In this document: piece after piece, positions 9,376-34,881 of the stretch | How the letters are laid out: the number at the start of each line of letters is the position of its first letter | Position numbering within the stretch: the stretch's first letter is position 1 | NCBI GenBank assembly: GCA_009377605.1 | Contig: WHTT01000059.1 | Coordinates: 1 to 36,084 of the forward strand | Source of the DNA: Luteitalea sp. | Lineage (GTDB): Bacteria; Acidobacteriota; Vicinamibacteria; Vicinamibacterales; Vicinamibacteraceae | Direction of reading: 5' to 3' | Length of the DNA: 36,084 bases | The notes under the pieces: generated by a model | What the model was told of the DNA's origin: nothing | What the model saw: only the letters and a program-made list of their open reading frames with translations | The model's database searches: none | Translations under genes and position numbers: made by a program

Positions 9376-12300
9376 CACAGCGCTCCGAGATCCTCTTCGC
9401 GGTAGATGACCTTCTTGCGGCCCTGTTCGAGCGGCATCTTGCGGATGAGGACCGCGCAATCGCGCTCGGACGGACTCGTGCCCCAGTAGTTGAGGAAGTA
9501 CGTCCAGTTGGCGTACCCGCCGATCATGGTGGCGGGATTCATCATGATCCGCGTCGGGGCGTTGTTGTTGCCGCCGCGCAGGTCGCTGGCGCCGCGCTCG
9601 CGGGCCAGACGCGAGATGGGCACGTTGATGTGGCGCTCCGAGGAGTGATACATGATGGCTGTGTCGCGCGGCACGGTCATGCTCACGACGGCCCGCACCA
9701 CCGAGATCCCGTTCTGGTTGTAGATCTCGACCCAGTCGTTGTCGCGCACGCCAATGGCGCCTGCGTCCTCGTCGTTGAGCCACACGACCTGACCGCCGCG
9801 GAACAGGTTCAGCATGTGCCAGCTGTCCCAGAACATGCTGTGGATCTGCCACTTGCCGTGAGGCGTAAGGAACCGGAACACCTTCGATCCCGGTGCGGCC
9901 TCCGCCAGCGACACGTCGCCGATCTTCACCATGTCCACCGGCGGCTTGTAGGCGGGCAGCGACTCGCCCAGCTCCCGGTAGCCGCGGTGATCGAAGTAGA
10001 TTTCCTGCCGGCCGCTGAGCGTGTGAAACGGCTTGAGCGTCTCGATGTTGAGCGTCCAGGGACAGTACGTGCGCCCTGGGCTCTCGACCGCCGACCAGTG
10101 GGGCGACGTCAGACTGCGGCGGGGCTGCGACTCCAGGTCGGGGAAGTGATGATGCACATCGCGATCTCCTTCCACGAGGTGCGCCAGCGGCACGCCGCAC
10201 TGGCGCTCCAGCGCCGTGAACAGCTGGTGCGACAGTTCGCCATCGCTTTCCGGGGAGATGCGCAGAATGACCTCCGCCACCTGCCGCGGTGTCTCCAACG
10301 ATGGGCGGCCGAGCTTTTCGCCCACCAGGTAGTTGTCTTTGAGCTGCTCGTAGATGTGAGTCAGATCGGTGGTGATGCCCTTGGCGCCGTAGCCGTTCGG
10401 CCGGCACACGCGAGGCCCGAACGTGGTGTACCGTTCGAGCGTCTTCGTGTAATCCCGCGTGACGACGTGCACGTGCGGGAAGTACTTGCCGGGGACCGGC
10501 TCGACGTCGCCTGCCGACCAGTCCCGGATCTCCCCGAACGGCTGCGCCAGTTCGTCCGGACTGTCCGTGATCATCGGCGTCATCACGACGTCCTCGACCG
10601 GCAAGGGCAGATGGTCCTGGGCGAGCTCGCTGACCTTCGCGGCGACCGCCTTGAATGCGTCCCAGTCGTGTCGCGCCTCCCAGGGCGGATCGTGAGCGGG
10701 CGTGAAGGGATGGAAGAACGAGTGAAGGTCGGTGCAGGTCAGGTCGTACTTCTCGTACCAGTGGGCCGTCGGCAGCACGATGTCCGCGTAGTTGGCGGAC
10801 GAGTCCATCCTGAGGTTGACATTGACGATCAGATCGAGCTTGCCGAGCGGCGCCTGTTCGTGCCACTCGACGTCTTCGACGAGATCGCGGGCACGCTCGT
10901 CCCCGAGCACGTTGTGGTGCGTGCCGAGCAGGTGCTTGAGCGCGTACTCGTGGCCGCGCATGCTGGTGCCGATCAGGTTTCCCCTGTAGATCCAGAGCAC
11001 CTTCGGGTGGTTCTCCGGCGCGTCGACGTCCTCCACAGCGAACCGCTGCGCGCCCCGCTTGAACTGATCTGCCACGTAGGCGGCGATCTCCTCCTCCGTC
11101 TGGGCGCCGGCCGCGCGTGCCTCCCGCGCGATGTCCAGCGGATTCACTTTGTCGACCTGTGGATAGAACGGCAGCCAACCGAGACGGATCGCGAGCAGGT
11201 TCAGATCGGCGGCGTGCCGGCCCTTGGAGGGAAGATCGCGGGCCCAGGGCGCCCAGAGCGGATCCAGCACCATGCCGTCGTACCGCCACTGATCGGTGTG
11301 GAAGTAGAAGTACGACGTGCTGTTCTGATGGCGCGGCGGACCGCTCCAGTCCGCCGCGTTGCCAAGCGTGCCGATTGCGGCGTAGCTGCGGATCTTCTCG
11401 GTGCCGACGTAGTGCGCGAAGCCGCCGCCGTTCCGGCCCATGCAGCCGGTGAGGAGGCCCATCACGGCCTGGGCGCGATAGATGAGCGAGCCGCCGTGGA
11501 ACCAGTGGAGCACGCCGGAGCCGGTGATGAATAGGCATCGTCCCTTCGTACGCTCGGCGTTGTCGGCCCATTCCCTCGCCACGCGGATCGCCAGGTTCCG
11601 GCTCACGCCCGTCTCCTGTTCCTGCCACGCCGGCGTATACGGCACGGACGCATCGTCGTAGCCGTTCGGATAGTCGCCGCCGAGGCCGCGGCTCACGCCG
11701 AGTTGCGCGATCAGAAGATCGAACGCCGTGGTGACGAGGACCTCCGTCCCGTCCCGTTTCGTGAATCGGCGAGCGGGCACGCCGCGGCGGAGCGAGCGGG
11801 CCGGCCGGCCGTTGCCGTCCGTCGCTCCGAGCGTCGTGTCGAACGTTTCTGTGTAATTGGCGAAGAGGACGGACGCCTCCTCCCATCCGGCGGCGTCCGT
11901 CAGCGTCAGCATCGGGTCGATCGCCGCGCCGGTGACGGCGTCCTCGAGCTTGAGATTCCAGCGGCCCGTGTGCTGCGCCTCCCAGCGAAAACCCACTGAT
12001 CCCCCGGGCAGACGCACGTCGTCAGTGGCGCGATCGAGCACGACGAGCTTCCAGTCGGCATGCTCCTCCGCGGCGTACGCGGACGTGTCCGAGGCGCGCA
12101 CGAATCGACCCTGCAGATACGTCCCGTCGGCGTGCGGCTCCAGTTCGACCAGGAACGGCAGGTTTGTGAACTGCTTCACGTACTCGGCGAAGTAGGGCAC
12201 CGGCCGGTCGACGTAGCATTCCTTCAGGATCACGTGAATGCACGCGAGTAGAAACGCCGCGTCCGTGCCCGGGCGCACGGGTACCCAGAGGTCCGCGAAT

Positions 12301-13142
12301 TTCGTCACGTCGGAGTAGTTCGGTGACAGGTTGACGATCTTGCCGCCGTTGTACTTGTGCTCCGAGGCGAAGTGCGCATCGGGCGTGCGTGTCATCGGCA
12401 GGTTCGATCCGATCACCATCCAGTAGGTGCTCTGGTACCAGTCCGCTGACTCATGGACGTCGGTCTGATCGCCCCACATCATCGGCATGATGTGTGGCAG
12501 GTCGTGGTACCACTCGTAGAAGCTCAGCATCGTGCCACCCAGCAGGTTGCACAGCCGGTGGCCCGAGAGAAAGCTCACCATGCTCATCGCCGGGATCGGC
12601 GAGAACGAGGCGAGGCGATCCGGTCCGTACCGCTTGATCGTGTGGATGATTGCTGCCGCCCAGATCTCGGTCGCGAGATCCCAGGTCGCGCGCCGCCAGC
12701 CTGCCTTGCCGCGCGCCCCGCGATACGCCGCCACGCGGGTGGGATCGTGGACAATCGCGGCCCAGGCCGCCACGGGGTCCTTGCCCGCCTGTCGCTCGCG
12801 CTCGTACAGGTCCAGCAGCACGCCACGAATGTACGGGTACTTCGGGCGGACAGGGCTGTACGGATACCAGGACGCGGAGATTCCTCGCTGGCAGCCGCGG
12901 GGTTCGTAGTTCGGTGTGTCGGAATCGATCTGCGGCCAGTCGGTCTTTTGGAGCTCCCAGCAGATCAATCCGTCCTTGACGAACACTTCCCAGGAGCACG
13001 AGCCCGAACAGTTCACGCCGTGGCTGCTGCGCACGGATCGATCGAACGCCCAGCGCTCGCGGTAGAAGTCCTCCCAGTCGCGCGGTTCGTCCGCGATCCG
13101 AAACCATCGCGATCCATGGCGGTCGTTGCTCGTGTGAGTCAT
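9375..13142 (-). CDS. narG: Respiratory nitrate reductase catalytic subunit NarG
   Basis: The 1255-aa molybdenum subunit reduces nitrate to nitrite at a bis-MGD centre. FS0 ligands His41, Cys45, Cys49 and Cys84 lie in HGVNCSGSCSW and EPRGCQRG, each eight residues earlier than in E. coli NarG. Asp214 in FYEWYHDLP matches the Mo-ligand Asp222 with the same offset. There is no twin-arginine signal peptide, so it is predicted to face the cytoplasm, unlike periplasmic nitrite oxidoreductases. Similarity runs to the C-terminal MIGGYANWTYFLNYWGTSPSERD part. It follows an AGGAG site and overlaps the stop of the upstream 194-aa gene by four bases. Cofactor and cluster ligands are all intact, so the enzyme should be active. 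Confidence 0.97.
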   Translation of the reverse strand: MTHTSNDRHGSRWFRIADEPRDWEDFYRERWAFDRSVRSSHGVNCSGSCSWEVFVKDGLICWELQKTDWPQIDSDTPNYEPRGCQRGISASWYPYSPVRPKYPYIRGVLLDLYERERQAGKDPVAAWAAIVHDPTRVAAYRGARGKAGWRRATWDLATEIWAAAIIHTIKRYGPDRLASFSPIPAMSMVSFLSGHRLCNLLGGTMLSFYEWYHDLPHIMPMMWGDQTDVHESADWYQSTYWMVIGSNLPMTRTPDAHFASEHKYNGGKIVNLSPNYSDVTKFADLWVPVRPGTDAAFLLACIHVILKECYVDRPVPYFAEYVKQFTNLPFLVELEPHADGTYLQGRFVRASDTSAYAAEEHADWKLVVLDRATDDVRLPGGSVGFRWEAQHTGRWNLKLEDAVTGAAIDPMLTLTDAAGWEEASVLFANYTETFDTTLGATDGNGRPARSLRRGVPARRFTKRDGTEVLVTTAFDLLIAQLGVSRGLGGDYPNGYDDASVPYTPAWQEQETGVSRNLAIRVAREWADNAERTKGRCLFITGSGVLHWFHGGSLIYRAQAVMGLLTGCMGRNGGGFAHYVGTEKIRSYAAIGTLGNAADWSGPPRHQNSTSYFYFHTDQWRYDGMVLDPLWAPWARDLPSKGRHAADLNLLAIRLGWLPFYPQVDKVNPLDIAREARAAGAQTEEEIAAYVADQFKRGAQRFAVEDVDAPENHPKVLWIYRGNLIGTSMRGHEYALKHLLGTHHNVLGDERARDLVEDVEWHEQAPLGKLDLIVNVNLRMDSSANYADIVLPTAHWYEKYDLTCTDLHSFFHPFTPAHDPPWEARHDWDAFKAVAAKVSELAQDHLPLPVEDVVMTPMITDSPDELAQPFGEIRDWSAGDVEPVPGKYFPHVHVVTRDYTKTLERYTTFGPRVCRPNGYGAKGITTDLTHIYEQLKDNYLVGEKLGRPSLETPRQVAEVILRISPESDGELSHQLFTALERQCGVPLAHLVEGDRDVHHHFPDLESQPRRSLTSPHWSAVESPGRTYCPWTLNIETLKPFHTLSGRQEIYFDHRGYRELGESLPAYKPPVDMVKIGDVSLAEAAPGSKVFRFLTPHGKWQIHSMFWDSWHMLNLFRGGQVVWLNDEDAGAIGVRDNDWVEIYNQNGISVVRAVVSMTVPRDTAIMYHSSERHINVPISRLARERGASDLRGGNNNAPTRIMMNPATMIGGYANWTYFLNYWGTSPSERDCAVLIRKMPLEQGRKKVIYREEDLGAL

Positions 13143-20786: not shown

Positions 20787-21281
20787 TCAGCCTGTGTGTC
20801 GTTGCCGCACTTCGCGCGACCACCGCATGAGGTCGAGCCCGGCGTCTGTCGCCCGCGTCCGCGTATCGAGAATGGTGCGCACGACGTCTTCCGGCAAACG
20901 CTCGACCATGATCGAAAGCCCCTCACAATCGCTCACGTGTGGCAAGATGCCGCGGGTCAATTGCTTGCCGCGCTCGACATCATCAGTGGAGAGCTCCGCC
21001 TTGCCCGAGAGCGCCGAGAGCTCGCCGGCTGCGGCGATGACGCCATCATGGGCGGTAAGGAGTTGCTCGACGTACCCGGCCCCGTACACGTCGGTGAGTG
21101 CTGGGTACAGAGCCTCCTCCTCGTACCGGAAGTGGGGGCCGGTGCAGCCGGCAATCTGCTGGAGCAGGCTGCTCGCACGCCCCGTATCCCGCTGGTCGAA
21201 CGCATCGATGAGATCGAATAGGGCGTCCCTCACACAACGGTGCTCCTCGCGGAAGATCTTGGAGAATTCGTTCGCCAGCAT
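20787..21281 (-). CDS. Hemerythrin HHE domain protein (Hr1)
   Basis: The 164-aa protein shows di-iron motifs in helices: IFREEHRCVRDALFDLID, GPHFRYEEEALYPALTDVY, LLTAHDGVIAAAGEL and GILPHVSDCEGLSIMVERL. It probably binds oxygen or NO or protects iron-sulfur proteins. A GAGG site precedes the ATG. It is the third gene of the operon read from the promoter at 22080-22121. A decayed copy of its middle part is found at 32988-33098, joined to a piece of the neighbouring hemerythrin gene. Between it and the next gene upstream are 111 bases with no recognised feature. Confidence 0.88.
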   Translation of the reverse strand: MLANEFSKIFREEHRCVRDALFDLIDAFDQRDTGRASSLLQQIAGCTGPHFRYEEEALYPALTDVYGAGYVEQLLTAHDGVIAAAGELSALSGKAELSTDDVERGKQLTRGILPHVSDCEGLSIMVERLPEDVVRTILDTRTRATDAGLDLMRWSREVRQRHTG

Positions 21282-21392: not shown

Positions 21393-21836
21393 CTACCCCA
21401 CCGCCACCCCTCGGCTGTCCGCCCATCTGTGACCGAGCTGTTCGAGATCCTGCACGGGTATCGATTGCTGGGCCATGTGGAAGAGGATTTGCTCCTCCTT
21501 GGCGAAATGGTCTCTGGCCACCTGCAGCGCATAGCGGAGCCGCTCCAATGCTTCGTCAAAGAATCGAGCGTTCGCGACCTCCTCGATTGCCCGTTCGATC
21601 TCCTCGTGCTCGTGCCGCATGACGGCCAAAGGCCCTGCCGGGCCCAAGTACGTCTCGAGCGGCGGGAAGAGCATCTCGTCCTCGATCTGCGCGTGCGACA
21701 CCAGTGCGGCAGCCAGTACCCTGGTCACGCGCTGCACGTCTTCCAGCGTGGAAGTGGCTGGCAGCTCTCGTTCCACGTGATCAAACAGAGCGTAGATGAC
21801 GCCATGCTCGCCCAGGAGTGCGTCGGTCAGTTTCAT
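21393..21836 (-). CDS. Hemerythrin HHE domain protein (Hr2)
   Basis: The 147-aa protein carries LLGEHGVIYALFDHVE, LVSHAQIEDEMLFPPLETY, VMRHEHEEIERAIEEV and VARDHFAKEEQILFHMAQ, the four helices with His/Glu ligands of the HHE family. The ATG at 21836 precedes the first helix; open frame further upstream has no family similarity. It is a different lineage from its neighbour Hr1. A segment of it recurs at 33100-33240 in decayed form. Likely role: O2 or NO binding within the nitrogen-oxide response operon. Confidence 0.88.
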   Translation of the reverse strand: MKLTDALLGEHGVIYALFDHVERELPATSTLEDVQRVTRVLAAALVSHAQIEDEMLFPPLETYLGPAGPLAVMRHEHEEIERAIEEVANARFFDEALERLRYALQVARDHFAKEEQILFHMAQQSIPVQDLEQLGHRWADSRGVAVG

Positions 21837-21889
21837 GAGTTGCTCGTGTCGATGGCCATGTGAAGTAGATCGAGGAACGCCTCGGGGTC

Positions 21890-22079: not shown

Positions 22080-22121
22080 AAGATGCCCACGGACATCATC
22101 ATCGTCTTTGCACCGGCGCAA
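22080..22121 (-). promoter_or_regulatory. Crp/Fnr-type promoter P1 (DUF1858-hemerythrin operon)
   Basis: On the plus strand the operator reads TTGCACCGGCGCAA at 22108-22121. On the minus strand a weak -10 (CATCTT, 22085-22080) lies at the fixed distance found at the other copies. The next 17 bases or so match the copy at 33243-33284 closely. It also overlaps the last codons of the truncated AlkA gene. Confidence 0.65.
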
Positions 22122-23250
22122 ACTGACGGATCGTCTCGGCCTTTCTAAGACTCAGACCGCATGCTCTGATGGCGTCGAGACGCGCCTCGGCAACAACCCG
22201 AGCGGCAGGAAAGGCGTGCCAGCGATGGTTCTCGTGTTCAAGGGACTCGCCAAAGCGCTCGACCAGCCGGCGAACGATCGTCACGCCAGCATCCAGGCTT
22301 ACCTGCTGGAACGGCACCACGTTCGCAAACGCCTCGAAGAGCCCGGCGAACCGCGGCGGTCGCATGCCACGCAGCGCGACCGCGATGGGGCGAAGCCGAC
22401 GATCAGCCTCCACCAGCCGCAGCAAGGGCTCCGGATTCAGATCCAGACCGAGCACCTTCCGCAAAGTCTGTCCGAGCGAAACACGGGTGGCACTGGAACA
22501 GTCGCCGCGAAGCACGTTGCACCGGACGTTTGGATCGTCAATGGTCCCGTGATTCACCACCTCGACCAGTGCAAGACCGTCGGCCGGCGTCAGCGCTCGC
22601 AGGTATCTGCGCTGGTGCCAGACATCGACCAGATTCGTCGGTCGGCGCTGCAGCACACGCACGGTGGCCTCGAGGTGGAACGGCGCCAGAGTAGCAAGCT
22701 GCCCGCCTTCATCACCCGGATAGGTAACGCGCGTGCCATCGACCTGGGCGAACGCTGTCACGTGGTGTCGGGTCGAGCGTTCGGCGCTGGTGATGTGTTC
22801 TACGTGTGCTCCGCGGGCGGTCAACGCGTCGGCTATGAGGGAGCGATGACAACGCCACGGCACGGCCTCCGCGCACATCAGGGCGACCCTGTCGTCGGTC
22901 GTCAGCGCACGCAGCTTCGCCAGTCCGGCCTCGAAGTCCTGAGTCAGCATGTAGTCGGCGAACCCTCGGAAGCGTGCGTTGCGCCACGCGGTGTTGGGTG
23001 AGTCCTCGCATGCCCGACGCAGGCCACCGAGCTGCGGGAGATGTACGTAGCGAAGTCGCCGCGAACGAAGAGCCGATCGAAGCATGTCGCCGTTGAACTG
23101 TGGATTGCGACGCGAGCGAGGAATGGTCCGGATGTCCGCCAGCACCGAGATGCTGAACGCCCGCAGTAGCGCGACCACCTCGTCGAGCGTGCGCGTCGAA
23201 TGGCCCACGGTATAGACGCTAGCGGCTCTCCAGCTTTTCGCTCGACGCAT
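22099..23250 (-). CDS. DUF488 domain fused to a truncated AlkA-type DNA glycosylase
   Basis: Residues 1 to about 165 are a DUF488 domain (YTVGHSTRTLDEVVALLRAF, ADIRTIPRSRRNPQFN, CAEAVPWRCHRSLIADAL). From about residue 188 the sequence matches 3-methyladenine DNA glycosylase II: FHLEATVRVLQRRP, then PPRFAGLFEAFANVVPFQQVSLDAGVTIVRRL and LSLRKAETIRQFA. It then ends within the operator of promoter P1. The helix-hairpin-helix and the catalytic Asp that follow in AlkA are missing, so glycosylase activity is not expected. A GGAGG site precedes the ATG. It lies downstream of promoter P2 and a 17-codon leader. Cutting exactly at the operator points to recombination at the promoter repeat. Confidence 0.82.
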   Translation of the reverse strand: MRRAKSWRAASVYTVGHSTRTLDEVVALLRAFSISVLADIRTIPRSRRNPQFNGDMLRSALRSRRLRYVHLPQLGGLRRACEDSPNTAWRNARFRGFADYMLTQDFEAGLAKLRALTTDDRVALMCAEAVPWRCHRSLIADALTARGAHVEHITSAERSTRHHVTAFAQVDGTRVTYPGDEGGQLATLAPFHLEATVRVLQRRPTNLVDVWHQRRYLRALTPADGLALVEVVNHGTIDDPNVRCNVLRGDCSSATRVSLGQTLRKVLGLDLNPEPLLRLVEADRRLRPIAVALRGMRPPRFAGLFEAFANVVPFQQVSLDAGVTIVRRLVERFGESLEHENHRWHAFPAARVVAEARLDAIRACGLSLRKAETIRQFAPVQRR

Positions 23251-23262
23251 CAGATCCCTCCA

Positions 23263-23316
23263 TCAGACGCGCAGTGGGTCATGCGTTCGCCGTCGGGGTG
23301 GTGGCGTGATCTTCAT
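23263..23316 (-). CDS. 17-codon leader ORF between promoter P2 and DUF488-AlkA
   Basis: The ATG at 23316 follows a strong GGAGGGGATTCATC leader that is also present at 27157-27170. The frame codes MKITPPPRRRTHDPLRV and stops beside the ribosome site of the DUF488-AlkA gene. It is probably the stump of a gene that once followed this promoter, or a leader peptide. No homologue is recognised. Confidence 0.3.
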   Translation of the reverse strand: MKITPPPRRRTHDPLRV

Positions 23317-23375
23317 GATGAATCCCCTCCGGGTGGCGAGCCGTTCGCCAGCTCCATGGCCATCACGGTACCACT
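23317..23375 (-). repeat. Promoter-to-ribosome-site repeat, copy 1
   Basis: From the -10 TACCGT to GGAGGGGATTCATC this stretch is nearly identical to 27157-27209, with two or three differences. The first half is also similar at 27985-28016 upstream of the azurin gene. It transfers a whole 5' untranslated region and ribosome site between unrelated genes. Confidence 0.75.
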
Positions 23376-23406
23376 CATCGCAGACGCCGTCTTTGATCTA
23401 GCGCAA
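23365..23406 (-). promoter_or_regulatory. Crp/Fnr-type promoter P2
   Basis: The operator TTGATCTAGCGCAA (plus-strand reading) lies at 23393-23406. A -10 hexamer TACCGT is found on the minus strand at 23370-23365, at the exact offset used by the other copies. It points at the 17-codon leader and the DUF488-AlkA gene. One operator arm is FNR-like (TTGAT) and the other is CGCAA. Confidence 0.72.
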
Positions 23407-23463
23407 ACTGCAAAAGATCTGCAGGTAGGAGGGCAGGGGTCCGAGACTTGCCCGTGGTCCAAA

Positions 23464-23850
23464 ATGAGAGACACGGATGAGGCATCGCCCGATCTCAGCC
23501 GGTCGCGGATCTTCGACGGCCTCGCCGACGAGGAGATGGCCGCGAGCACATTGTGCGCTTCGGCGGGCCGGGCGAGCCGTTCGGTGGGAGTGTGGCTCTC
23601 GACGGCACCGCGTACCGCTGCCGGCACTCGCGGGCGAACGAACGCGGCTTTGAGCGTGCCACGTGAGGTGCTCGCGCGGCTGCTCCAGCACGTCCCTGTG
23701 GTCCGCACGACCGTCTGCGCGAGATCGCACGGCACATGACCGATGCTCTCACGCGCGTTCGCGAGCTGACGACCGAGCGCCTGGTCGTGCGCTCGCGCCG
23801 CCGCCTCGAGACGCTCTCGCGCACCGCCGACGAATCTCATTCCTCCACCG
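23464..23850 (+). pseudogene. Decayed Crp/Fnr regulator, copy 1
   Basis: The start codes SRSRIFDGLADEEMAA, a typical Crp N-terminus. Shifted frames then give VRFGGPGEPFGGSVALDGTAYR and EVLARLLQHVPVVRTTV, both parts of the Crp barrel and dimer helix. The DNA-binding domain is almost wholly lost; only its end (GCCGCCTCGAGACGCTCTCG region) remains. It shares long stretches with copy 2 at 28113-28800, but with larger deletions. It lies between promoters P2 and P3, which face outward. Confidence 0.75.
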
Positions 23851-23853
23851 ACT

Positions 23854-23895
23854 TTGCGCCAGCACAAAACGCCCGCGCCGGGTGCTCAGTAATGT
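23854..23895 (+). promoter_or_regulatory. Crp/Fnr-type promoter P3
   Basis: Operator TTGCGCCAGCACAA at 23854-23867 and -10 TAATGT at 23890-23895, centre to hexamer exactly +29.5 to +34.5. It faces the iron permease gene. Downstream sequence to the ribosome site near 23940 is highly similar to that of P5 ahead of nirK. Confidence 0.72.
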
Positions 23896-23951
23896 GGTCA
23901 TGAGCGTCCCGGACGACCCCGGGCGCGACGCCGGTCGAGGAGAGACACGTC

Positions 23952-24218
23952 ATGCGCCGAGCGCCACCAGAGCCGCGCCCACTCATGATCATCATCCTGA
24001 CCAGGACGGCCGCATCGACGACTTCTCGCCGGCGCCGACCTCTGGGATGCGCGCATCGCGAAGGACGCAGGGCGTCAGGTGCAGTTCCTTGTCGGTGTCG
24101 ACAATCTGTGTGCTGAGCAACACGTGCGGCATTCCCGTCGCGGGGCCGCCGGGTGCACGCAGGCGCGACCGTCCACTATTCCCGGTTGTCGGATCCCGGC
24201 ACTGCTGGAGGACTGGAC
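23952..24218 (+). other. Remnant between promoter P3 and the iron permease
   Basis: An ATG at 23952 has the same ribosome-site context as nirK (GAGGAGAGACACGTC). The frame MRRAPPEPRPLMIIILTRTA looks like a signal-peptide head, then becomes Arg-rich and stops near 24117. I do not recognise the source gene. It appears to be the stump of a gene that followed P3; the permease begins at its end with its own ribosome site. Confidence 0.35.
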
Positions 24219-24986
24219 ATGTACCAAGGATTTGTCATCACCTTGCGTGAAGGACTCGAAGCGTTTCTCATTGTGGCGATTAGCCTCGCCTACCTGCGCA
24301 AGACCGGACGCCATCATCTCGTGTCGGCGGTCCATTGGGGGATCACTGCCTCCGTCCTCGTGAGCGTGGCTGCCGCGTTCCTGTTTCAACGGGCACCGAA
24401 TCAGGCGCTGTGGGAAGGCGTGCTGGCCGTCGCGGCTGCGATCCTGGTCGCGTCCTTCACGGTACACGTGTGGCGCGCAGGGCGGCGGCTCAAGCGCCAG
24501 ATCGAGATGCGACTGGAAACGTCGGCCGTTCGTGAAGGACGCACGGCATTCGTGGGCGTGTTCCTCTTCACGCTTCTGATGATCACTCGCGAGGGCATCG
24601 AGACGGTCGTCTTGATGGGCGTGCTGCTCTTTCAGGCGCACTCCGTGCCGGTGTTCGCGGGCGCGATGGGGGGCATCGTGGCGGCGGCCGGCGTGGCCTG
24701 GCTGTGGGCCCGTTACGGACACCGAGTGAACTTGGCGCGCTTCTTCCAAGTCACGGCCGTGTTTCTCTTCGTGTTCGTCGTCCAGCTCCTGATCTACGGC
24801 TTTCATGAGTTGACGGAAGCGCGCGTCCTGCCCTACAGCGAATCGTTGCACTGGGCGACCGAACCGTACGGCCCCCACGGTCGCTACGGTCAATTGTTCA
24901 CCTATCTGCTCGTGCTCCTACCGATCGGCTGGCTGGCGGTGACGTCTTGGGTAAACAGGAAGACCGGCCAGGTCGCGCATGGCTGA
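24219..24986 (+). CDS. FTR1-family iron permease (EfeU-like)
   Basis: The 255-aa protein has about seven membrane helices and the two REXXE iron-translocation motifs of the FTR1/EfeU family: REGLE in helix 1 (LREGLEAFLIVAISLAYLRKTG) and REGIE in helix 4 (ITREGIETVVLMGVLLFQ). EfeU-type permeases take up ferrous iron after oxidation. No EfeO or EfeB is adjacent. The ATG follows GGAGG at good spacing, and the MYQGFVITLREGLE head matches relatives. It lies downstream of promoter P3, so it may answer to the same nitrogen-oxide or oxygen signal. Length is close to the usual 270-280. Confidence 0.9.
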   Translation: MYQGFVITLREGLEAFLIVAISLAYLRKTGRHHLVSAVHWGITASVLVSVAAAFLFQRAPNQALWEGVLAVAAAILVASFTVHVWRAGRRLKRQIEMRLETSAVREGRTAFVGVFLFTLLMITREGIETVVLMGVLLFQAHSVPVFAGAMGGIVAAAGVAWLWARYGHRVNLARFFQVTAVFLFVFVVQLLIYGFHELTEARVLPYSESLHWATEPYGPHGRYGQLFTYLLVLLPIGWLAVTSWVNRKTGQVAHG

Positions 24987-25040
24987 TCGCGACTGACCAC
25001 GCGGAGGGCAAGAGAAGAGACCAACGCGACGAAGCCTCGA

Positions 25041-25243
25041 TCAGCGCCGTGTCGCAAACATCGAAATGGATGGTGTTCGAATGTGTTGGTTGCTAATTGC
25101 CATGTAGTTGTGACCCAGGACCAGAACGTTTTTCTGGCGCTTCAGCTCCAGGATCCGGCGGATCTTCTCTTCCTGGGCCAAAACGCTATCTCGTGCTCCG
25201 TCCCTGCCAGCAAGCGCCGGTACTCCTCATAGACCGTGACCAT
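25041..25243 (-). pseudogene. nadA: Quinolinate synthase N-terminal fragment
   Basis: The first frame reads MVTVYEEYRRLLAGTEHEIAF. After a one-base slip in a T-run near 25185 it continues AQEEKIRRILELKRQKNVLV and LGHNYMA, the start of quinolinate synthase NadA with its His-x-Tyr motif. It ends within 15 codons. All three iron-sulfur cysteines and most of the 300-plus residue enzyme are absent. The rest of 24987-25396 shows nothing recognisable. Confidence 0.65.
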
Positions 25244-25396
25244 CGTCTTATAGCTGCTTTCTTCATCGCGACCGCGCCTCGTCGGCGAAGACGCGTCGGC
25301 TGAAGGTATTGCACGCCTCATGAGTGTCCGGCGTGAATGAGGCCCGCCGTCGTGAGATCTCACGTGATTGAATCAAGAGCTGGCGGGCAGCCTCAG

Positions 25397-25882
25397 TTAG
25401 AGGCCCCTCGCCGCGTACATCATCAGTCCGAATATGACAAGCAGCACAACGAGGCCCACCCGGGGAATCACCCGAAGGCGGTGGAGCACGTCGTCGGCTA
25501 CGCTCGCTCCGGGGTTCTTACGGTGTGAGGCGATTGAACGCTCCAGTCTCGATTCCATCACGAAATGAAAGGCTGTCAGCAGAAGCCCCATCGTTCCCCC
25601 TGCGAGAATCGCGCGGCCCCATGCGGTCGTGGTAAAGAGGTCGAGGTGTTCCCCACTGAAGCGAAGGGCCAGTATCAGACCAGTCAGAATGGTTAAGGTG
25701 GAGAGGACTGATGCCAGCCTGAAGATCTTGGGAAAAACCGCATCCACGAAGCGCTCTCGGGAACCGGTGTCCAGGTGACCAAGCACAGGCACCAGCACGA
25801 AGTTGATGACCACTACCTCTCCGAGCCAGGAGGCCGCTGCCAGAACGTGGGCCCAGCGGACAAACGTCAACCAGCTCTCCAT
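25397..25882 (-). CDS. CopD/DUF2269-like membrane protein
   Basis: A 161-aa four-helix membrane protein with FVRWAHVLAAASWLGEVVVINFVLVPVL as first helix, the W(A/L)HVLAAxxWLG pattern also seen in the CopD-like gene at 19896. Other helices are LASVLSTLTILTGLILALRF, AILAGGTMGLLLTAFHFVM and VGLVVLLVIFGLMMYAA. A GGGAGTTG site precedes the ATG, which lies one base after the lplA stop. It is probably involved in metal or haem handling at the membrane. It is the last intact gene of the transcript that begins at promoter P4. Confidence 0.75.
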   Translation of the reverse strand: MESWLTFVRWAHVLAAASWLGEVVVINFVLVPVLGHLDTGSRERFVDAVFPKIFRLASVLSTLTILTGLILALRFSGEHLDLFTTTAWGRAILAGGTMGLLLTAFHFVMESRLERSIASHRKNPGASVADDVLHRLRVIPRVGLVVLLVIFGLMMYAARGL

Positions 25883-25883
25883 T

Positions 25884-27080
25884 TCAACTCCCGATGACAC
25901 GCGTCCCGCAGCCATCGGCCTGCTGCCATGCCGAGTGTTTATTGGCGGCGGAAGCTACGCCGTCCATTTGCCGGTGAGAACTCCCATCACAACCTCTTGC
26001 AGACAGGAGGGCCTTACGTTTCATCGGCAAACCCCCGCTCGTAGACGCTCTCGTGACTTCACTGGTCTTCTCTCGAACGCTCGCTGGGTGGAGAAGCGCC
26101 AGGAACGCATCGGTGGGGAGGCCGGGGAAGCTCGCACGCAAATCGAGTCCACGAAGCGCTTTTTGAAGGACTTCGGGGTCGTACGAAACGCCGCGCAGAG
26201 CCTGCTCTATTCGCCGCACCACCCCCGTTCCCAGAAAGTCGCCGAAGATGTGAATCTGGTCGATACGGCCCTTGCGCACCTCGAGACGCGCGTCGACCTC
26301 GCCGAAGGCGAAACGGCGGACGCGCGCCACGTTGAAGCGTGGCGAGGCGCCAACATTCCAGTCCCACCGCGCATATCGCCGCTCCATGATCCGCCGGACG
26401 CCGGACCAGTCCTGCGCACTCAGCCGCTGCCGCCGGACGCCGCTTCCAGCAAAGATGCCGTTGAGGAGCTGCATCCGGAAGGTGGGCACATCCACTTCCT
26501 TCTCTGAGTAGTCCGCGATGTTCGCCACCCGATTGCGAACGCGCTGGTGCCCTTTCGACTGGATCTTGTCCTGCTGTACGTTGAGGGCGTGCGAGATTTC
26601 TTCCAGGTTGCTGTTGAAAAGCAGTGTGCCGTGGCTGAACATGCGCCGGGTCGTCGAGAATTGGGCATTGCCCGAGATCTTGCGGCCGTCGACCATCAGA
26701 TCGTTGCGCCCCTGGAGTTCGGCGGCCACCCCCATTGACTGCAACACCCGGACCACCGGTTCAGTGAAGAACCGGAAGTTGTGCAGGCGGTCCGGGCGGT
26801 GGTCGGTGATGAAGCTGAAGTTGAGGTTACCCGCGTCATGGTAAACAGCTCCGCCCCCGGAAAGCCGGCGGACGACATGAATGCCCCGGTCCCGGACGTA
26901 GCGAAGGTTGATCTCTTCGAACGTGTTCTGATTGTGGCCGACGATGATCGATGGCTCGTTGACGTAGAAGAGCACGTATGTGTACCGCGGATCCAGATAG
27001 CGCAACGCGTACTCTTCGATGGCGAGGTTGATCCGTGGATCGGTGATGTGTTCGTTGTCGATGTAAGCGAGCTCAGGCAT
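25884..27080 (-). CDS. lplA: Lipoate-protein ligase A family protein
   Basis: The enzyme attaches lipoate to the lysine of lipoyl domains such as PDH E2 and GcvH. The 398-aa protein has RRLSGGGAVYHDAGNLNFSF (the lipoate/AMP-binding loop) and GRKISGNAQ with the conserved Lys, plus the C-terminal accessory domain to about residue 335. The last 60 residues are low in similarity and Ser/Arg-rich, so the end may be a fused tail. No ribosome site of its own is seen: the ATG lies inside the end of a 27-codon leader ORF, giving possible coupling. The frame is also open upstream through PdhA-like and DUF542-like pieces. A PdhA fragment nearby fits an old PDH-lipoylation gene set. Confidence 0.85.
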   Translation of the reverse strand: MPELAYIDNEHITDPRINLAIEEYALRYLDPRYTYVLFYVNEPSIIVGHNQNTFEEINLRYVRDRGIHVVRRLSGGGAVYHDAGNLNFSFITDHRPDRLHNFRFFTEPVVRVLQSMGVAAELQGRNDLMVDGRKISGNAQFSTTRRMFSHGTLLFNSNLEEISHALNVQQDKIQSKGHQRVRNRVANIADYSEKEVDVPTFRMQLLNGIFAGSGVRRQRLSAQDWSGVRRIMERRYARWDWNVGASPRFNVARVRRFAFGEVDARLEVRKGRIDQIHIFGDFLGTGVVRRIEQALRGVSYDPEVLQKALRGLDLRASFPGLPTDAFLALLHPASVREKTSEVTRASTSGGLPMKRKALLSARGCDGSSHRQMDGVASAANKHSAWQQADGCGTRVIGS

Positions 27081-27156
27081 GATGCGGCAGGGGACGGAGC
27101 CCGAAGTCGGTTGAGGCATGCAGAACGCTGTTCTCGAGATGCACATGGACATGCAT
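27073..27156 (-). CDS. 27-codon His-rich leader ORF overlapping lplA start
   Basis: An ATG at 27156 follows the GGAGGGGATTCATC repeat. It codes MHVHVHLENSVLHASTDFGL and seven more residues, ending in TGA inside the first codons of lplA. It may be the stump of a gene first placed after this promoter, now acting as a coupling leader. The six His residues are notable, but 27 codons do not show a family. Confidence 0.35.
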   Translation of the reverse strand: MHVHVHLENSVLHASTDFGLRPLPHHA

Positions 27157-27209
27157 GATGAATCCCCTCCGGTGGCGAGCCTTTCGCCAGCTCTATGGCC
27201 ATCACGGTA
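27157..27209 (-). repeat. Promoter-to-ribosome-site repeat, copy without operator
   Basis: Matches 23317-23375 from the -10 TACCGT (27209-27204) to GGAGGGGATTCATC. The operator that should lie upstream is replaced by PdhA-like coding sequence, so the copy is probably no longer a regulated promoter. Confidence 0.7.
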
Positions 27210-27210
27210 C

Positions 27211-27575
27211 CGAGGCTCCAGCGCCGCCATCAACCCGACAACGGTGGCCTCCTCGCCGAGATTGAGATGGCAGTACCCGCCGATCCTGGCCCGCTGGTAC
27301 ATCTCGCCGGCGCGCAGCTCGAACGCCCTGATGAGTGCCATCTGCCGGTAGTAACCGCGCACCTCCGCCCACTCCTCACCCGGCAGGGCATGATCGGACG
27401 TCCGCTCGACGTCCTCGGGTCGGGTTTCGCCGGCGGCGACGATCGCTGCGCGCAACTCGGCCAAGAGGGTATCCGGATTGATATCGTGACGAACGCACGC
27501 GTCGGCGAGCGAGATGTTCCCTCCGCAACAGCAGTCAATGCGATGCTGCCGAAACACGTTGATGGTGGCCGGCTG
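27211..27575 (-). pseudogene. DUF542 (RIC/ScdA) and PdhA N-terminal pieces joined in one frame
   Basis: On the minus strand the first part reads PATINVFRQHRID then CCCGGNISLADACVRHDINP and LLAELRAAI. This is the DUF542 N-terminal domain of the RIC/ScdA iron-sulfur repair protein, with its conserved CCGG. After a linker it reads YYRQMALIRAFELRAGEMYQ and RARIGGYCHLNLGEEATVVG, the N-terminus of the pyruvate dehydrogenase E1 alpha subunit. It stops at AALEP, where the promoter repeat begins. Neither piece is complete: RIC lacks its hemerythrin domain and PdhA lacks its thiamine-diphosphate site. The frame stays open into lplA. Confidence 0.7.
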
Positions 27576-27960
27576 AGAAGTCGACGGACACCGTCTCACC
27601 ACCTCCAGCCAGCCCCGATGCCACCAGGACCTGGTCCTTGAGCGTGGGCGCAATGTAGTCCGTCGTCCGGGCGATCGCCGACGCGTTGACAAACGCCTCC
27701 ACGTTGGCGCCCGGTTTGAGCATCACGAAGTTGTGCGCCATTGCCACTTTCGGCATCTTGCTCACCGCCTTCAGGGTGATCCGCACGCGCTCGCCGGGCT
27801 TGACCTCGATCGTATCGGGCGAGTACCTCATGTCGTCGGTCCCCGTCAGCGCGATGACTCGCGCTGGCGTCGATTGAGCGCCCGGTCCCGGCGTCGTCGG
27901 TTGCTCGGCGTGCGCTGATCCGGCGACGAGACACGCTCCAAGAATGACCCACATCGTCAT
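27535..27960 (-). pseudogene. Azurin-like cupredoxin cut before its copper loop
   Basis: A signal peptide (MTMWVILGACLVAGSAHA) is followed by the azurin fold: MRYSPDTIEVKPGERVRITL, MPKVAMAHNFVMLKPG and TDYIAPTLKDQVLVASGLAG then GGETVSVDF. His of MAHN matches the first type-1 copper ligand. The sequence then switches to DUF542 DNA read in another frame (GHHQRVSAASH), so the Cys, His and Met of the C-terminal copper loop are gone. Azurins donate electrons to nitrite reductases and peroxidases; this 141-aa product should not bind copper. It starts after promoter P4, opposite nirK. Confidence 0.78.
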
Positions 27961-28010
27961 CTACTTCACCGTTCCGGGTGGCGAGCATGCTCGCCATCTC
28001 CATGGCCGTC

Positions 28011-28052
28011 ACGGTACCACTCGTCGCCCACGCGGTCTTTGATCCAGCGCAA
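28011..28052 (-). promoter_or_regulatory. Crp/Fnr-type promoter P4 (azurin/lplA unit)
   Basis: Operator TTGATCCAGCGCAA (plus reading) at 28039-28052. On the minus strand the -10 TACCGT lies at 28016-28011 at the standard offset. Almost the same as P2. It drives the truncated azurin and, if the transcript runs on, lplA and the CopD-like gene. Confidence 0.75.
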
Positions 28053-28112
28053 ACTGCAGAAAGCCTGCAAGCAAGAGGCATGATTCAGATATCTAACGGA
28101 AGCTTGAGTTGA

Positions 28113-28800
28113 ATGAAAGATACGGATGGAGGTACCGCCCGATCTCAGCCGGTCTCGGATCTTCGACGGCCTCGCCGACGAGACGATGTGGCTGCGTGAG
28201 TCCTGTGCGCGTGAGGTGCGACGCAGACGCAACCATTGCCCGGCAGGTGAGCGAGCACACGCGTCCAGCTGATCGAGACCGGCTTGCTGAAGCTTGTGGA
28301 GCTGATCCGGACGGCCGCGACCTCACTGTGCGCTTCGGCGGGCCGGGGGAGCCGTTCGGTGGGAGTGTGGCCCTCGACGGGACCGCCTACCGGTGACGGC
28401 ACTCGCGGTCGAACGAACGCGGCTTTGGGCGTGGCCATGTGAGGTGCTCACGCGACTGCTCCAGCGCGTCCCTGTGGTCCGCACGACCGTCATGCGCGAG
28501 ATCGCACGGCACATGACCGATGCCCTCGCGCGCGTTCGCCAGCTGACGACCGAGCGCGGCGGCCAGCGACTGGGCCACACCTTGCCGCGGCTGATGTGGT
28601 AGTGCGGCCAGCCCACCCCCGAGGGCGTCCTCATCATCCCTCCCTTGACCCGGCAGCAGGTCGCCGAGCTCACGGGCACGATCCTTTACACGGTGAGCCG
28701 CACCTCGTCGCAATGGGAGGCCGACGGCGTGCTGCGCTCCGGGCGTCGCCGCCTCGAGACGCTCTCGCGCACCGACGACGACGAATCTCATTCCTCGACC
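28113..28800 (+). pseudogene. Decayed Crp/Fnr regulator, copy 2
   Basis: Frames in order give LIETGLLKLVELI, then DGRDLTVRFGGPGEPFGG, then TALAVERTRLWAWPCEVLTR, LLQRVPVVRTTVMREIARHM and TDALARVRQLTTERGGQRLG. After an in-frame TAG at 28600-28602 come LIIPPLTRQQVAELTGT and ILYTVSRTSSQWEADGVLRS, the winged helix-turn-helix. The recognition helix keeps the TVSR pattern of FNR/DNR-like proteins. At least two frameshifts and the stop make it inactive. It lies between outward-facing promoters P4 and P5, the layout of a regulator controlling both neighbours. Confidence 0.85.
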
Positions 28801-28804
28801 GACC

Positions 28805-28846
28805 TTGCGCCAGCGCAAAGCGCCCGCGCCGAGCGTTGTGTACCGT
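28805..28846 (+). promoter_or_regulatory. Crp/Fnr-type promoter P5 (nirK)
   Basis: A perfect operator TTGCG-CCAG-CGCAA at 28805-28818 and -10 TACCGT at 28841-28846. The predicted start near 28853 would be +41.5 from the operator centre, the class II Crp/Fnr position. nirK begins at 28910 after AAGGAGG. Confidence 0.8.
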
Positions 28847-28909
28847 GGTCATGACTGTGCGTGCGCGCAGGATACCCCGGGCGCGACGCCGGTCAAGGAG
28901 GCACACGTC

Positions 28910-30091
28910 ATGCGAGATCCGAGCCTCCGGACCGTCGGGATTCTGGCTGTGATCTTTGGCGCGGCGACGCTCGTCGCCGATGTTCTGCTGCTCAGGACCG
29001 AGACTGCGCCGCGGCAATCACCGGGCGCCAAGGTGTTCGGTATGCCGCCGGCCACCGTGTTTCAGGAGGACTACAACGGTCCACCCGTCACCGGACGCAA
29101 TGTGACGCGTGCACCGGCGCTCGCGCCGCTCCAGGCGGGCAACACCACGCACCACGTGCGGATCGACGTGGTCGCCGCTGAAATCGAGGTCGCGCCGGGC
29201 GTCCGCTACCAGGCGTGGACATTCGGCGGTACGGTGCCCGGTCCCGTCGTGCACGTGCGCGAATGGGATCGTGTGGTCTTCACGATGAAGAATCGAAGCG
29301 ACACGGAGGTGACGGTCACCGAACCATCAGCGGGCGCATCGCCATTCCTTCGTGATCTTGCGCGCGACCAGCTCCAGAAGCGGACGCCGGCTGTGGCACC
29401 GATGCCTCACTCGATGGACTTCCATGCCGGCACCGTCGCGCCCGATGATAAGTGGCGTGCGATCCAGCCCGGCGAGAGCATCCGCTTCGAGTGGGTCGCG
29501 AACTATCCCGGCGTGTATCTGTATCACTGCGGTGTGGAGCCAGTCCTCATGCATCTGGCGATGGGGCAGTACGGTGTGGTCGTGGTCAGCCCGCGTTCGG
29601 GATTCCCGACCGACGACGTCGTGGACCATCGCTACGTGGTCGTGCAGTCGGAGTTTTATCTGAAGCCTGGCGACGGCGAGCTGCACGTGCTCGATTTCGA
29701 CCGCGCGCTCGCGAAACAGCCGTCGCAGGTGGCGTTCAACGGACACACGCAAGCGCTTCGCGAGTCGCCGCTCATCGCGAACGCCGGCGAGCGTGTCCGG
29801 ATCTACTTCCAGAACGTCGGACCAAACGACGGTTCGAGCTTCCACGTCGTCGGTGCCATTTTCGACCGTGTGTTCTACGAGGGCGACCCACGCAACGAGT
29901 GGGCTGGCCTGCAGACCGTGCCGCTTGGCGCGAGCAATGGCGTCGTGGTCGAGCTCATCGCACCGGAGGAAGGCACCTACATCCTCGTCGATCATGAGTT
30001 CGCCGACGCACAACGTGGTGCAATGGGTTATCTCCAGGTGCGCTCGGCTTCGGGTCAGATGACCGAACGCCTGCCGACCATGCCCCACTAA
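28910..30091 (+). CDS. NirK-like two-domain copper oxidase / nitrite reductase
   Basis: A 393-aa exported protein with an N-terminal signal anchor and two cupredoxin domains. Residues matching copper nitrite reductase: His167 and His172 with Asp170 between (PHSMDFHAG), His206-Cys207 (YHC), His215, and in domain 2 His312 (SSFHVVG) and His362 (VDHEF). The type 2 ligands and the catalytic Asp/His pair are therefore present. At the type 1 axial position relatives have Met (GMYG); here the segment is HLAMGQYG, giving Gln220. An AAGGAGG site precedes the ATG. It is read from promoter P5 and followed by an HMA-like gene. Nitrite reduction to NO is the likely role; another oxidase activity is possible. 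Confidence 0.82.
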   Translation: MRDPSLRTVGILAVIFGAATLVADVLLLRTETAPRQSPGAKVFGMPPATVFQEDYNGPPVTGRNVTRAPALAPLQAGNTTHHVRIDVVAAEIEVAPGVRYQAWTFGGTVPGPVVHVREWDRVVFTMKNRSDTEVTVTEPSAGASPFLRDLARDQLQKRTPAVAPMPHSMDFHAGTVAPDDKWRAIQPGESIRFEWVANYPGVYLYHCGVEPVLMHLAMGQYGVVVVSPRSGFPTDDVVDHRYVVVQSEFYLKPGDGELHVLDFDRALAKQPSQVAFNGHTQALRESPLIANAGERVRIYFQNVGPNDGSSFHVVGAIFDRVFYEGDPRNEWAGLQTVPLGASNGVVVELIAPEEGTYILVDHEFADAQRGAMGYLQVRSASGQMTERLPTMPH

Positions 30092-30129
30092 GCGCAGCCT
30101 TCCAGTGCTCAGGTGTAGGGAGTCGTCAC

Positions 30130-30378
30130 ATGAACGCTGGCCTCGCGCAAGAACGTTGGCATGGCGCGGGTCGCTACCGGATGTTGGGCCAGTGTCCCCA
30201 GCTTGAAGGTTGTGCGGAAAAGATCAGCCTGGCACTCAGGGCACTCCCGGGCGTGTGCCAGGTCAAGCCGCAGGTGGCGCAAAAGCACGTCGTGGTGCGC
30301 TACGAACCACACCGTGTGAAGGAGCCTCGACTCACAGAGGCGCTCAAGCGTGCCAGATTTACCGCGATCGAGATATAA
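30130..30378 (+). CDS. Heavy-metal-associated-like small protein
   Basis: The 82-aa protein has the beta-alpha-beta-beta-alpha-beta order of HMA metal-binding domains: YRMLGQCPQLEGCAEKISLA, LRALPGVCQVKPQ, VAQKHVVVRYEPHRV and LTEALKRARFTAIEI. The usual CXXC is replaced by CPQLEGC. A GGGAG site lies before the ATG, 38 bases after nirK. It could carry copper to NirK or buffer it, which fits the MerR gene next door. Metal type is inference. Confidence 0.7.
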   Translation: MNAGLAQERWHGAGRYRMLGQCPQLEGCAEKISLALRALPGVCQVKPQVAQKHVVVRYEPHRVKEPRLTEALKRARFTAIEI

Positions 30379-32984: not shown

Positions 32985-33240
32985 AACTCACGTGCGGCAA
33001 GATGCCGCTGGTCACCGTTGGGCGCACTCGACATTGTCAGTGGACAGGTCCGCCTTCCTGAGGGCGCCAATCGCCCGGCCGCGGCGATTACGCCGTCAGA
33101 GGATTTGCTGGTCCTTGGCGAAATGGTCTCTGGCCACCTACAGCGCATAACGGAGCTGCTCCAATGCTTCCTCAAAGGATCCAGCGTTCGCCACCTCCCC
33201 GTTCGATGTCCTCGTGCTCGTGCCGCATGACGGTCAAGGA
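32985..33240 (-). pseudogene. Mosaic hemerythrin remnant
   Basis: Bases 32988 to about 33098 match the inner part of Hr1 (20933-21050). From about 33100 to 33240 they match Hr2 (21485-21630), so two neighbouring genes were joined with their ends lost. Small deletions shift the frame; after promoter P6 the first reading frame gives MRHEHEDIERGGGERWIL and stops. 32846-32985 keeps an open frame without clear similarity. Confidence 0.72.
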
Positions 33241-33242
33241 CG

Positions 33243-33284
33243 AAGATACCCACGGAGATCACCATTGTCTTTGCGCTGGCGCAA
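33243..33284 (-). promoter_or_regulatory. Crp/Fnr-type promoter P6
   Basis: Operator TTGCGCTGGCGCAA (plus reading) at 33271-33284, with symmetrical arms. On the minus strand -10 TATCTT at 33248-33243 at the standard offset. Its downstream part matches P1 and leads into the mosaic hemerythrin remnant. Confidence 0.72.
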
Positions 33285-33479
33285 AGAGACCAAAGAGGCG
33301 ATGCTCGTTGCCGACCCCGACGCTCAGAAATAGAGGTCGGGCCGTTCGGGTCACCGTCCATCGCTCCGCTGAGGTAGATGAGCGATCTCCACCACCCACA
33401 GCCGCGTGCCCTCGATCGGCTCGTCGAGCTCGAAGACGTTCGCTTCAAGGTGCGGGGCGCGACGGTTCGACGATGATGC

Positions 33480-33688: not shown

Positions 33689-34881
33689 GGGGCATAGACG
33701 CGCGCTCCTAGCGGTCCCCGTGCGGGGCGCCGCCGGATGAGTTCGAGGTTAATTCAAAAACGCGGTTTTGGCGCGGCGCAGGGACAATCATAGGGACAGT
33801 CATGGAGATCGTAGTCGCCGCGACGTGAGCCCGTTCGTGCGATCCCCTGCCCGATCAAACCGCGCTCATAAGTCACGCATCGCGCCCCCGTTTTGGTCCT
33901 CCGGTGGGCGCGAGCCTGAGCCGAAGCTTGAGTCGTAGGAGCCGATCGAGCGTGTCCTGCGGTCGGGTTGTGGTGCGACTTGATCGCACGTAGCACGTCG
34001 GATTGGCCGTCCGCACCTTCGCGGCAAATTCTGTCACGCCCATTGCGCGGATGACCTTACCAAGCGGAACCGCACGGGAACGCCTTGTTCAACAGCCCTG
34101 GGGAGAAACTCGCGCGCTAATTTTGGATTCCGCAGATCCTCAACGAGACCGACGTTTCAGTCTTCACTTCGTCTTGCCAAGGGGGTCGCCGTCCTCGCCA
34201 AAGTAGCTTCGATACCTGGCCCAGAACGCCAGACGGGCTTCCCGCACGCCGTGACAATTCGGCTCCGGTTGCGAACATTGGCTGCTGCCATTCCTCGAAC
34301 CGTGCCTTCTAACTCGGCCGAAGACGTTGAGAAGATGCATGCTGCGTGGATCAAATCATGCCTCTTGCAGGTGACGTTGTGGAGTCACCCCTACATCAAG
34401 GACGGAGATTTCTGAGTGAGCCGAGGGACGCCTGGTGGAAGACGAGGAGCTGATGCACCCGAAGCCCTCACGCTCTGGCGCATGATGATGTAAACACGTC
34501 TGGACTACGGATTCGAGCAGGTGCCCGCCCGTTCCAGCAGGTCAATCACGCCTTTGAAGCGTGTCGCCTGATCGCCCGCACCAGCGACGTCGACTGGTGC
34601 ATTTGGCACCCGGCGGCACAGCGAGCCCGTTACCGCTGTTCACGCCCACAGACCTCATCGATTTCGGCGTGCAGTCAAACTGTTGCCGCTGTCCCGCTCG
34701 AGTGACCGGTGATGTGGCGGTCAATCTGTCTGCGCGGAGCGATCGGTGAGGTGGCGGTGCTCGCGATGGCAGGACAGCAGGCAGACTGGCTTGATCTCGC
34801 GGAGGTCTCGCCGGCAAGATTGTGCGGGGCCGATGCGATGCCGGCTGCCAAGGAAGCACACCGTCAATGACCAGGACGGCT
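33689..34881. other. 1.2 kb with no recognisable gene
   Basis: Short open frames on both strands show no family similarity, no tRNA-like fold or inverted terminal repeats were noticed. A tandem pair AGGGACAATCAT / AGGGACAGTCAT lies at about 33778-33801. The base composition is somewhat lower in GC around 33740-34400 than in the flanks. It may be decayed genes. Confidence 0.5.

Follow-up and report, generated by a model that had tools for sequence, protein, structure and literature searches.

The window, that is, the whole stretch of 36,084 nucleotides analysed here (bases 1-36084 of contig C59, which has 41,034 bases, in a draft genome of 6.79 Mb, 382 contigs and 97.5% completeness), carries two copies of a module in which a dead Crp/Fnr regulator gene lies between two outward-facing operators. 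Taken as a whole, the likely account is that a regulator cassette died, was duplicated and decayed further, that its promoters persist, and that an intact orthologue of the regulator on another contig of the draft, C94, most likely activates them in trans.

An earlier note on this DNA had proposed two modules of one origin, each a regulator gene between two operators. Aligned with each other, the two modules show 90.7% identity over ungapped columns and nearly their full length, and the long gaps correspond to DNA lost from copy 1. The local alignment scores 672, whereas 200 shuffles reach at most 54.5 and segments from elsewhere in the window at most 63.5, and the similarity is not confined to short motifs. 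Both modules are thus real, with true bounds that exceed the coordinates first given for them:

23328..23963, unstranded: module copy 1 (left leader, operator P2, dead regulator, operator P3, nirK leader and start codon), from alignment to 27973-28925
27973..28925, unstranded: module copy 2 (left leader, operator P4, dead regulator, operator P5, nirK leader and start), from alignment to copy 1

The decay of both regulator genes, also noticed at the outset, is evident as frameshifts, a stop codon and large deletions when the copies are compared with the intact C94 orthologue:

23470..23850, + strand: dead Crp/Fnr regulator copy 1, with two internal deletions, frameshifts and the DNA-binding domain gone (frameshift-aware alignment to the C94 protein)
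28126..28782, + strand: dead Crp/Fnr regulator copy 2, with five frameshifts and an in-frame TAG at 28600; TVSR helix still readable
23610..23612, + strand: -1 frameshift at regulator codon 92 in copy 1, common to copy 2
28385..28387, + strand: -1 frameshift at regulator codon 92 in copy 2, common to copy 1 and absent from six intact orthologues
28910..30091, + strand: intact copper nitrite reductase-like gene (nirK) behind P5; TIGR02376 2e-51, below the curated cut-off

In copy 1, residues 19-34 and 39-66 are missing and two frameshifts of its own lie at codons 106 and 128; with the loss of the DNA-binding domain, the TVSR helix attributed to this copy is no longer present. Copy 2 carries lesions at codons 40, 44, 51 and 65 and the TAG at codon 164, none of which is found in copy 1. 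The number of differences between copy 2 and the C94 regulator at codon positions 1, 2 and 3 is 42, 34 and 72, as against 31, 24 and 110 between the adjoining intact nirK and the C94 nirK; grouped as positions 1 and 2 versus position 3, these counts are 76:72 for the regulator and 55:110 for nirK (Fisher p = 0.0014), and copy 2 appears to be under relaxed constraint. Strain mixtures or consensus errors that broke intact genes would be conceivable in a draft of 382 contigs and a region with several mosaic junctions, but such an artefact is very improbable. Indeed, the deletions of copy 1 span tens of codons and remove the whole DNA-binding domain, which is too large for read errors and excludes sequencing error for this copy; the relaxed codon pattern of copy 2 also speaks against it, as does the presence on this contig of long genes that are intact, e.g., a 1255-residue open frame at 9375-13142.

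Both dead regulators sit between two operators of type TTTGMKnnnnCGCAAA, and two further operators of the window stand upstream of hemerythrin sequences:

22107..22122, - strand: operator P1, upstream of the hemerythrin gene 21396-21869; -10-like CATCTT at 22080-22085
23392..23407, - strand: operator P2, TTTGCGCTAGATCAAA read leftward; -10-like TACCGT at 23365-23370
23853..23868, + strand: operator P3, TTTGCGCCAGCACAAA; -10-like TAATGT at 23890-23895
28038..28053, - strand: operator P4, TTTGCGCTGGATCAAA read leftward; -10-like TACCGT at 28011-28016
28804..28819, + strand: operator P5, CTTGCGCCAGCGCAAA; -10-like TACCGT at 28841-28846
33270..33285, - strand: operator P6, TTTGCGCCAGCGCAAA; -10-like TATCTT at 33243-33248; upstream of the fused hemerythrin remnant 32987-33237

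Exact matches to TTTGNKNNNNCGCAAA number only four in the whole 6.79-Mb genome and all lie in the window (P2 at 23392, P3 at 23853, P4 at 28038 and the palindrome at 33270), a pattern that was fitted to the sites of the window and for which the independent support comes from relatives, where this operator recurs in the orthologous position. P5 (28804) and the site at 22107 are one mismatch away from TTTGNKNNNNCGCAAA; patterns with one mismatch are no commoner in the genome than a reversed control. Isolated operator matches on contigs C9, C12, C13, C15 and C21 were rejected as regulon members, as they occur at the control frequency and the genes around those inspected show no denitrification link. 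Remnant 32987-33237 is itself a fusion of two neighbouring hemerythrin genes (20932-21048 and 21482-21629), a decayed target with its own retained operator.

Palindromic operators are directionless by themselves, and direction was tested by the spacing to a -10-like hexamer. A TANNNT hexamer starts exactly 21 bp beyond the 16-bp operator leftward of P2 and P4 and rightward of P3 and P5, and never toward the regulator, which bears out the outward orientation proposed in the earlier note. The same 21-bp spacing is found before ric on C94 and in five relatives, before nirK on C94 and before a COX1-like gene in the relative G002. Overall, 13 of 20 target directions and 0 of 16 opposite ones have TANNNT at a distance of 21 bp (p = 5e-5), or 8 of 14 versus 0 of 10 when the sites of the window are left out (p = 0.006), p-values that are optimistic, the sites being related by descent and the hexamer rule having been seen in the data before testing. 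Promoters of class II bound by Crp/Fnr proteins have the site at -41.5. With 30 bp between the operator centre and the first base of each -10-like hexamer, the spacing is as expected for such a site, whereas the hexamers are weak matches to TATAAT and the promoters are predicted from sequence. Positive autoregulation of the regulator through these operators is not supported, because no similarly spaced hexamer points toward the regulator gene.

A search of the genome for an intact copy with a TVSR recognition helix, suggested in the earlier note, led to C94:4621-5316 (minus strand), a gene of 232 residues with the helix LTGTTLYTVSR. Its product belongs to the Crp/Fnr superfamily (PF00027 2.9e-18 and PF13545 9.5e-18, both over the cut-off). 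The gene order on C94 is ric <- operator - regulator - operator -> nirK, followed by a gene for a weakly COX1-like membrane protein; ric, of the scdA/ytfE type (ScdA_N 3.6e-19 and Hemerythrin 1.8e-16), is transcribed away from the regulator. The copy 2 side of the window (28125-30136) matches C94:5311-3267 continuously at 82%, from near the regulator start through nirK, and the nirK product behind P5 matches its C94 counterpart at 345 of 394 aligned positions. Among 60 genomes searched, orthologues of the regulator at 58-65% identity were found in seven relatives of the family and order; a genome of the same genus (G001) contains no close orthologue, its best match having 27% identity. In five relatives (G002, G003, G004, G005 and G044), ric and the regulator are neighbours separated by a TTTGCGnnnnCGCAA-type site, and ric is read in the direction away from the regulator. 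Further operators in relatives precede an azurin-like gene (G003, G004 and, less closely, G002), a COX1-like gene (G002; also upstream of that gene in G059) and a hemerythrin-domain gene (G005).

The window itself keeps three traces of ric, one of them the leader and first codons behind P2 (23287-23412, 67%). The other two, and a third copy of the left leader, are the following:

27423..27575, - strand: fragment of the ric (scdA/ytfE) N-terminus behind the azurin-like gene; ScdA_N 8.4e-14, 78% to C94 ric DNA
27106..27157, - strand: fragment of the ric C-terminus, MHVHVHLENSVL, joined to the third leader; DNA 75%, E 2.5e-4; protein 9/12 residues
27154..27211, - strand: a third left leader that lacks an operator and runs from the -10 hexamer on; 95% to 23314-23372

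Because relatives share ric, operator and regulator and the window keeps these three traces, the ancestral cassette was most likely ric <- operator - regulator - operator -> nirK, as it now stands on C94. The half operator GCGCTGGAGCC that precedes the leader at 27154-27211 was discarded as a candidate, since the stretch is accounted for as coding DNA of a truncated PDH E1-alpha fragment. The left leader (23314-23372, 27154-27211 and 27973-28016) contains a short hairpin, GGCGA...TCGCC, just before the start codon, the loop of which differs among the three copies. A 197-bp stretch is repeated at 88% between the window (34121-34316) and C94 (13672-13868), with a weak partial third match on C56. 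The GC contents of C94 and the window contig (0.649 and 0.651) are taken as equal; together with the shared repeat, this agrees with both contigs belonging to one organism and is not proof of it, as C94 could come from a co-binned relative in a draft of 382 contigs.

On C94, the gene that follows nirK had been judged by eye to be nnrS-like, an assignment that was abandoned, since Pfam gives a sub-threshold COX1 match and no NnrS match. This weakly COX1-like membrane protein gene (L022 1960-3315 and L097 1595-2884) adjoins nirK or the regulator here and in relatives, with the same operator in G002, and may encode an unrecognised haem enzyme of nitrogen-oxide metabolism.

In the earlier note, the original unit was duplicated first and inactivated later. 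A unit in which two outward promoters flank a regulator is indeed intact on C94, and its left half is conserved in relatives, but the proposed order of events is less likely, since the codon-92 lesion is common to both copies. The same base is missing at codon 92 (TA-CCG) in both dead genes and is retained in C94 and five relatives (6/6 intact orthologues). Because both copies lack this base, the regulator most simply died before the duplication, a reading that the sequences support with moderate confidence. Had the regulator been intact at duplication and the copies inactivated separately, the frameshift would have had to arise twice or to spread from one copy to the other by gene conversion, which could also produce a shared lesion. 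That all lesions other than codon 92 differ between the copies is in keeping with separate inactivation; this sequence of events is nevertheless unlikely, as the position lost is identical in both while six intact orthologues keep the base, and a simple count over the overlap puts the chance of two independent losses within a few bases at roughly 5%.

With both window copies dead, the sites would depend on another protein. Intact full-length Crp/Fnr proteins were found on C94, C59 (two), C14 and C24, and among these only the C94 protein has an L[YFH]TVSR helix, the others reading ESAIR, ETTIR and RSRVNF. The C94 regulator therefore stands as the likely, predicted controller of P2-P5 in trans. 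Binding sites of NnrR read ctTTGcgnnnncgCAAag, and the helix residue at CRP position 181 (Glu) correlates with half-site A (Rodionov and colleagues, PMC1274295). The operator described here equals the consensus ctTTGcgnnnncgCAAag. Most of its half-sites are TTTGCG, with P2, P4 and the left site of C94 each keeping one TTGAT half, and the C94 protein lacks the Glu, which fits the correlation between Glu and A.

The C94 regulator resembles NnrR of alphaproteobacteria (Rhizobium etli p42f, Sinorhizobium meliloti and Bradyrhizobium diazoefficiens) in its Crp/Fnr architecture, in a TVSR helix without the Glu of FNR, in the operator TTTGCGnnnnCGCAAA and in the adjoining nirK, one of the NnrR target set nirK, nor and nnrS. 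The predicted NnrR-type operator TTTGCGnnnnCGCAAA is present before ric, nirK and azurin-like genes. The C94 regulator differs from these proteins by an identity of only about 40%, by the Tyr or Phe that its clade carries before TVSR (L[YF]TVSR, versus LHTVSR in rhizobial NnrR, ETISR in FNR and ETFSR in a DNR-like protein) and by its link to ric; its nearest plasmid relatives are nirK-linked rhizobial regulators. A further difference is that both window copies are dead. In a phylogenetic tree, the C94 clade (99/99) forms a separate branch beside, not inside, the clade with rhizobial NnrR, the fork that joins them being weak (87/70). NnrR of R. etli strongly controls norC and weakly nirK (PMC6514139); the R. 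etli p42f gene compared here is inferred from its position to be that nnrR. On these grounds, the C94 regulator is described as NnrR-like and is not called NnrR; it is probably NO-responsive. It was rejected as an FNR, as it lacks the N-terminal cysteine cluster that holds [4Fe-4S] (no cysteine occurs in the first 32 residues of the C94 protein, P0001), and as a DNR, its LYTVSR helix being without glutamate and its site not being TTGAT-N4-ATCAA. FNR/DNR boxes (TTGATnnnnATCAA) occur only twice in the genome, on contigs C4 and C11, distant and not relevant here.

A search of genome contigs with the C94 protein matched only two Pseudomonas loci. The nirK-SUMF1-NnrR-like-ric cluster of Pseudomonas sp. 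PDM18 likewise has an HTVSR-helix regulator directly adjoining ric and near nirK, in a different gene order and followed by a DNR-like gene. A recent duplication offers another parallel: A. ferrooxidans carries two close dnr paralogues, genes with predicted targets (PMC1274295). There too, a DNR-type Crp/Fnr regulator was recently duplicated beside its predicted targets, but the paralogues are described as genes, whereas both copies in the window are dead.

The genes that now lie behind P2, P3 and P4 are the following:

22099..23250, - strand: DUF488 and AlkA-like gene behind P2; Pfam DUF488 1.2e-30, AlkA_N 2.1e-6
24219..24986, + strand: FTR1/EfeU-like iron permease, first intact gene behind P3; Pfam FTR1 4.6e-32
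27535..27960, - strand: azurin-like cupredoxin gene behind P4; Pfam Copper-bind 2.7e-5, TIGR02695 azurin 5.5e-12, below cut-off

Because azurin-like genes are operator-linked in relatives, the azurin-like gene is a plausible old target; the placement of DUF488/AlkA and FTR1 behind P2 and P3 looks accidental. By eye, the degenerate sequence at 23963-24218, between P3 and FTR1, resembles the end of a decayed TonB-dependent receptor.

The operators had been thought to be kept while the regulators were lost, and they are present in both modules. On the one hand, they match between the copies at 15/16 and 14/16 bases (29/32, 91%, against 90.7% overall), and because this divergence equals the background rate, their persistence since the duplication is not evidence of selection. 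Together with a changed base in a P3 half-site (CACAA for CGCAA) and the degenerate sequence that separates P3 from FTR1, this rate would agree with the dead modules being neutral debris, in which P2, P3 and P4 are inert leftovers no longer used by any regulator. On the other hand, all of the operators retain the exact 21-bp spacing to the -10 hexamer, an intact nirK stands behind P5, and the 21 bases TTGATCCAGCGCAAACTGCAG at P4 are identical to those at the intact C94 locus although the intergenic region around them has otherwise diverged, a sign that constraint may have acted at some point after the two loci separated; inertness is thus possible, though somewhat doubtful. A search of the literature for such cases, in which the regulator is dead and its sites are retained, gave no result.

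In the favoured account of a cassette that died, was duplicated and decayed while its promoters persisted, the ancestral unit would have been an NnrR-type Crp/Fnr regulator between two class II promoters, with operators at -41.5, pointing outward to ric and nirK. The regulator gene would first have lost one base at codon 92; the cassette would then have been duplicated, both copies continuing to decay and ric being broken into fragments. Copy 1 would have lost nirK and gained new neighbours (DUF488/AlkA on the left, the FTR1 permease on the right), and copy 2 would have kept nirK, with the azurin-like gene adjoining. The promoters would have persisted, and the C94 orthologue most likely activates them in trans in addition to its own ric and nirK.

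This case is a concrete one of a regulator gene uncoupled from its operators: after the death of the gene, its outward promoters persist and come to stand, as copies, before further genes, under the possible control of an intact orthologue. An NnrR-like target set (ric, nirK, azurin-like and hemerythrin genes) is outlined as well, whose class II promoter geometry is fixed; in the papers searched, no regulon of this kind was found described for the lineage. The most interesting question is the regulation of the newly adjoining genes which, if they respond to NO or nitrite, would give a direct view of regulon expansion. Speculatively, and with low confidence, dead cassettes might work as portable promoter pairs, divergent and controlled in trans: a dead NnrR-type duplicate would have put FTR1 and DUF488/AlkA under the surviving regulator, and the regulon would have grown through pseudogene-borne promoters.

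Two other features of the contig are of note. Within the single open frame 25884-27692, a ric fragment, a truncated PDH E1-alpha fragment, the third ric leader, the C-terminal end of ric and a complete lipoate-protein ligase are pieced together as a mosaic. A radical-SAM-like gene (family assigned by eye) occurs in two copies, at 2525-3583 of the window and at C59:37124-38182 (L024), which are 81% identical and have long open frames.
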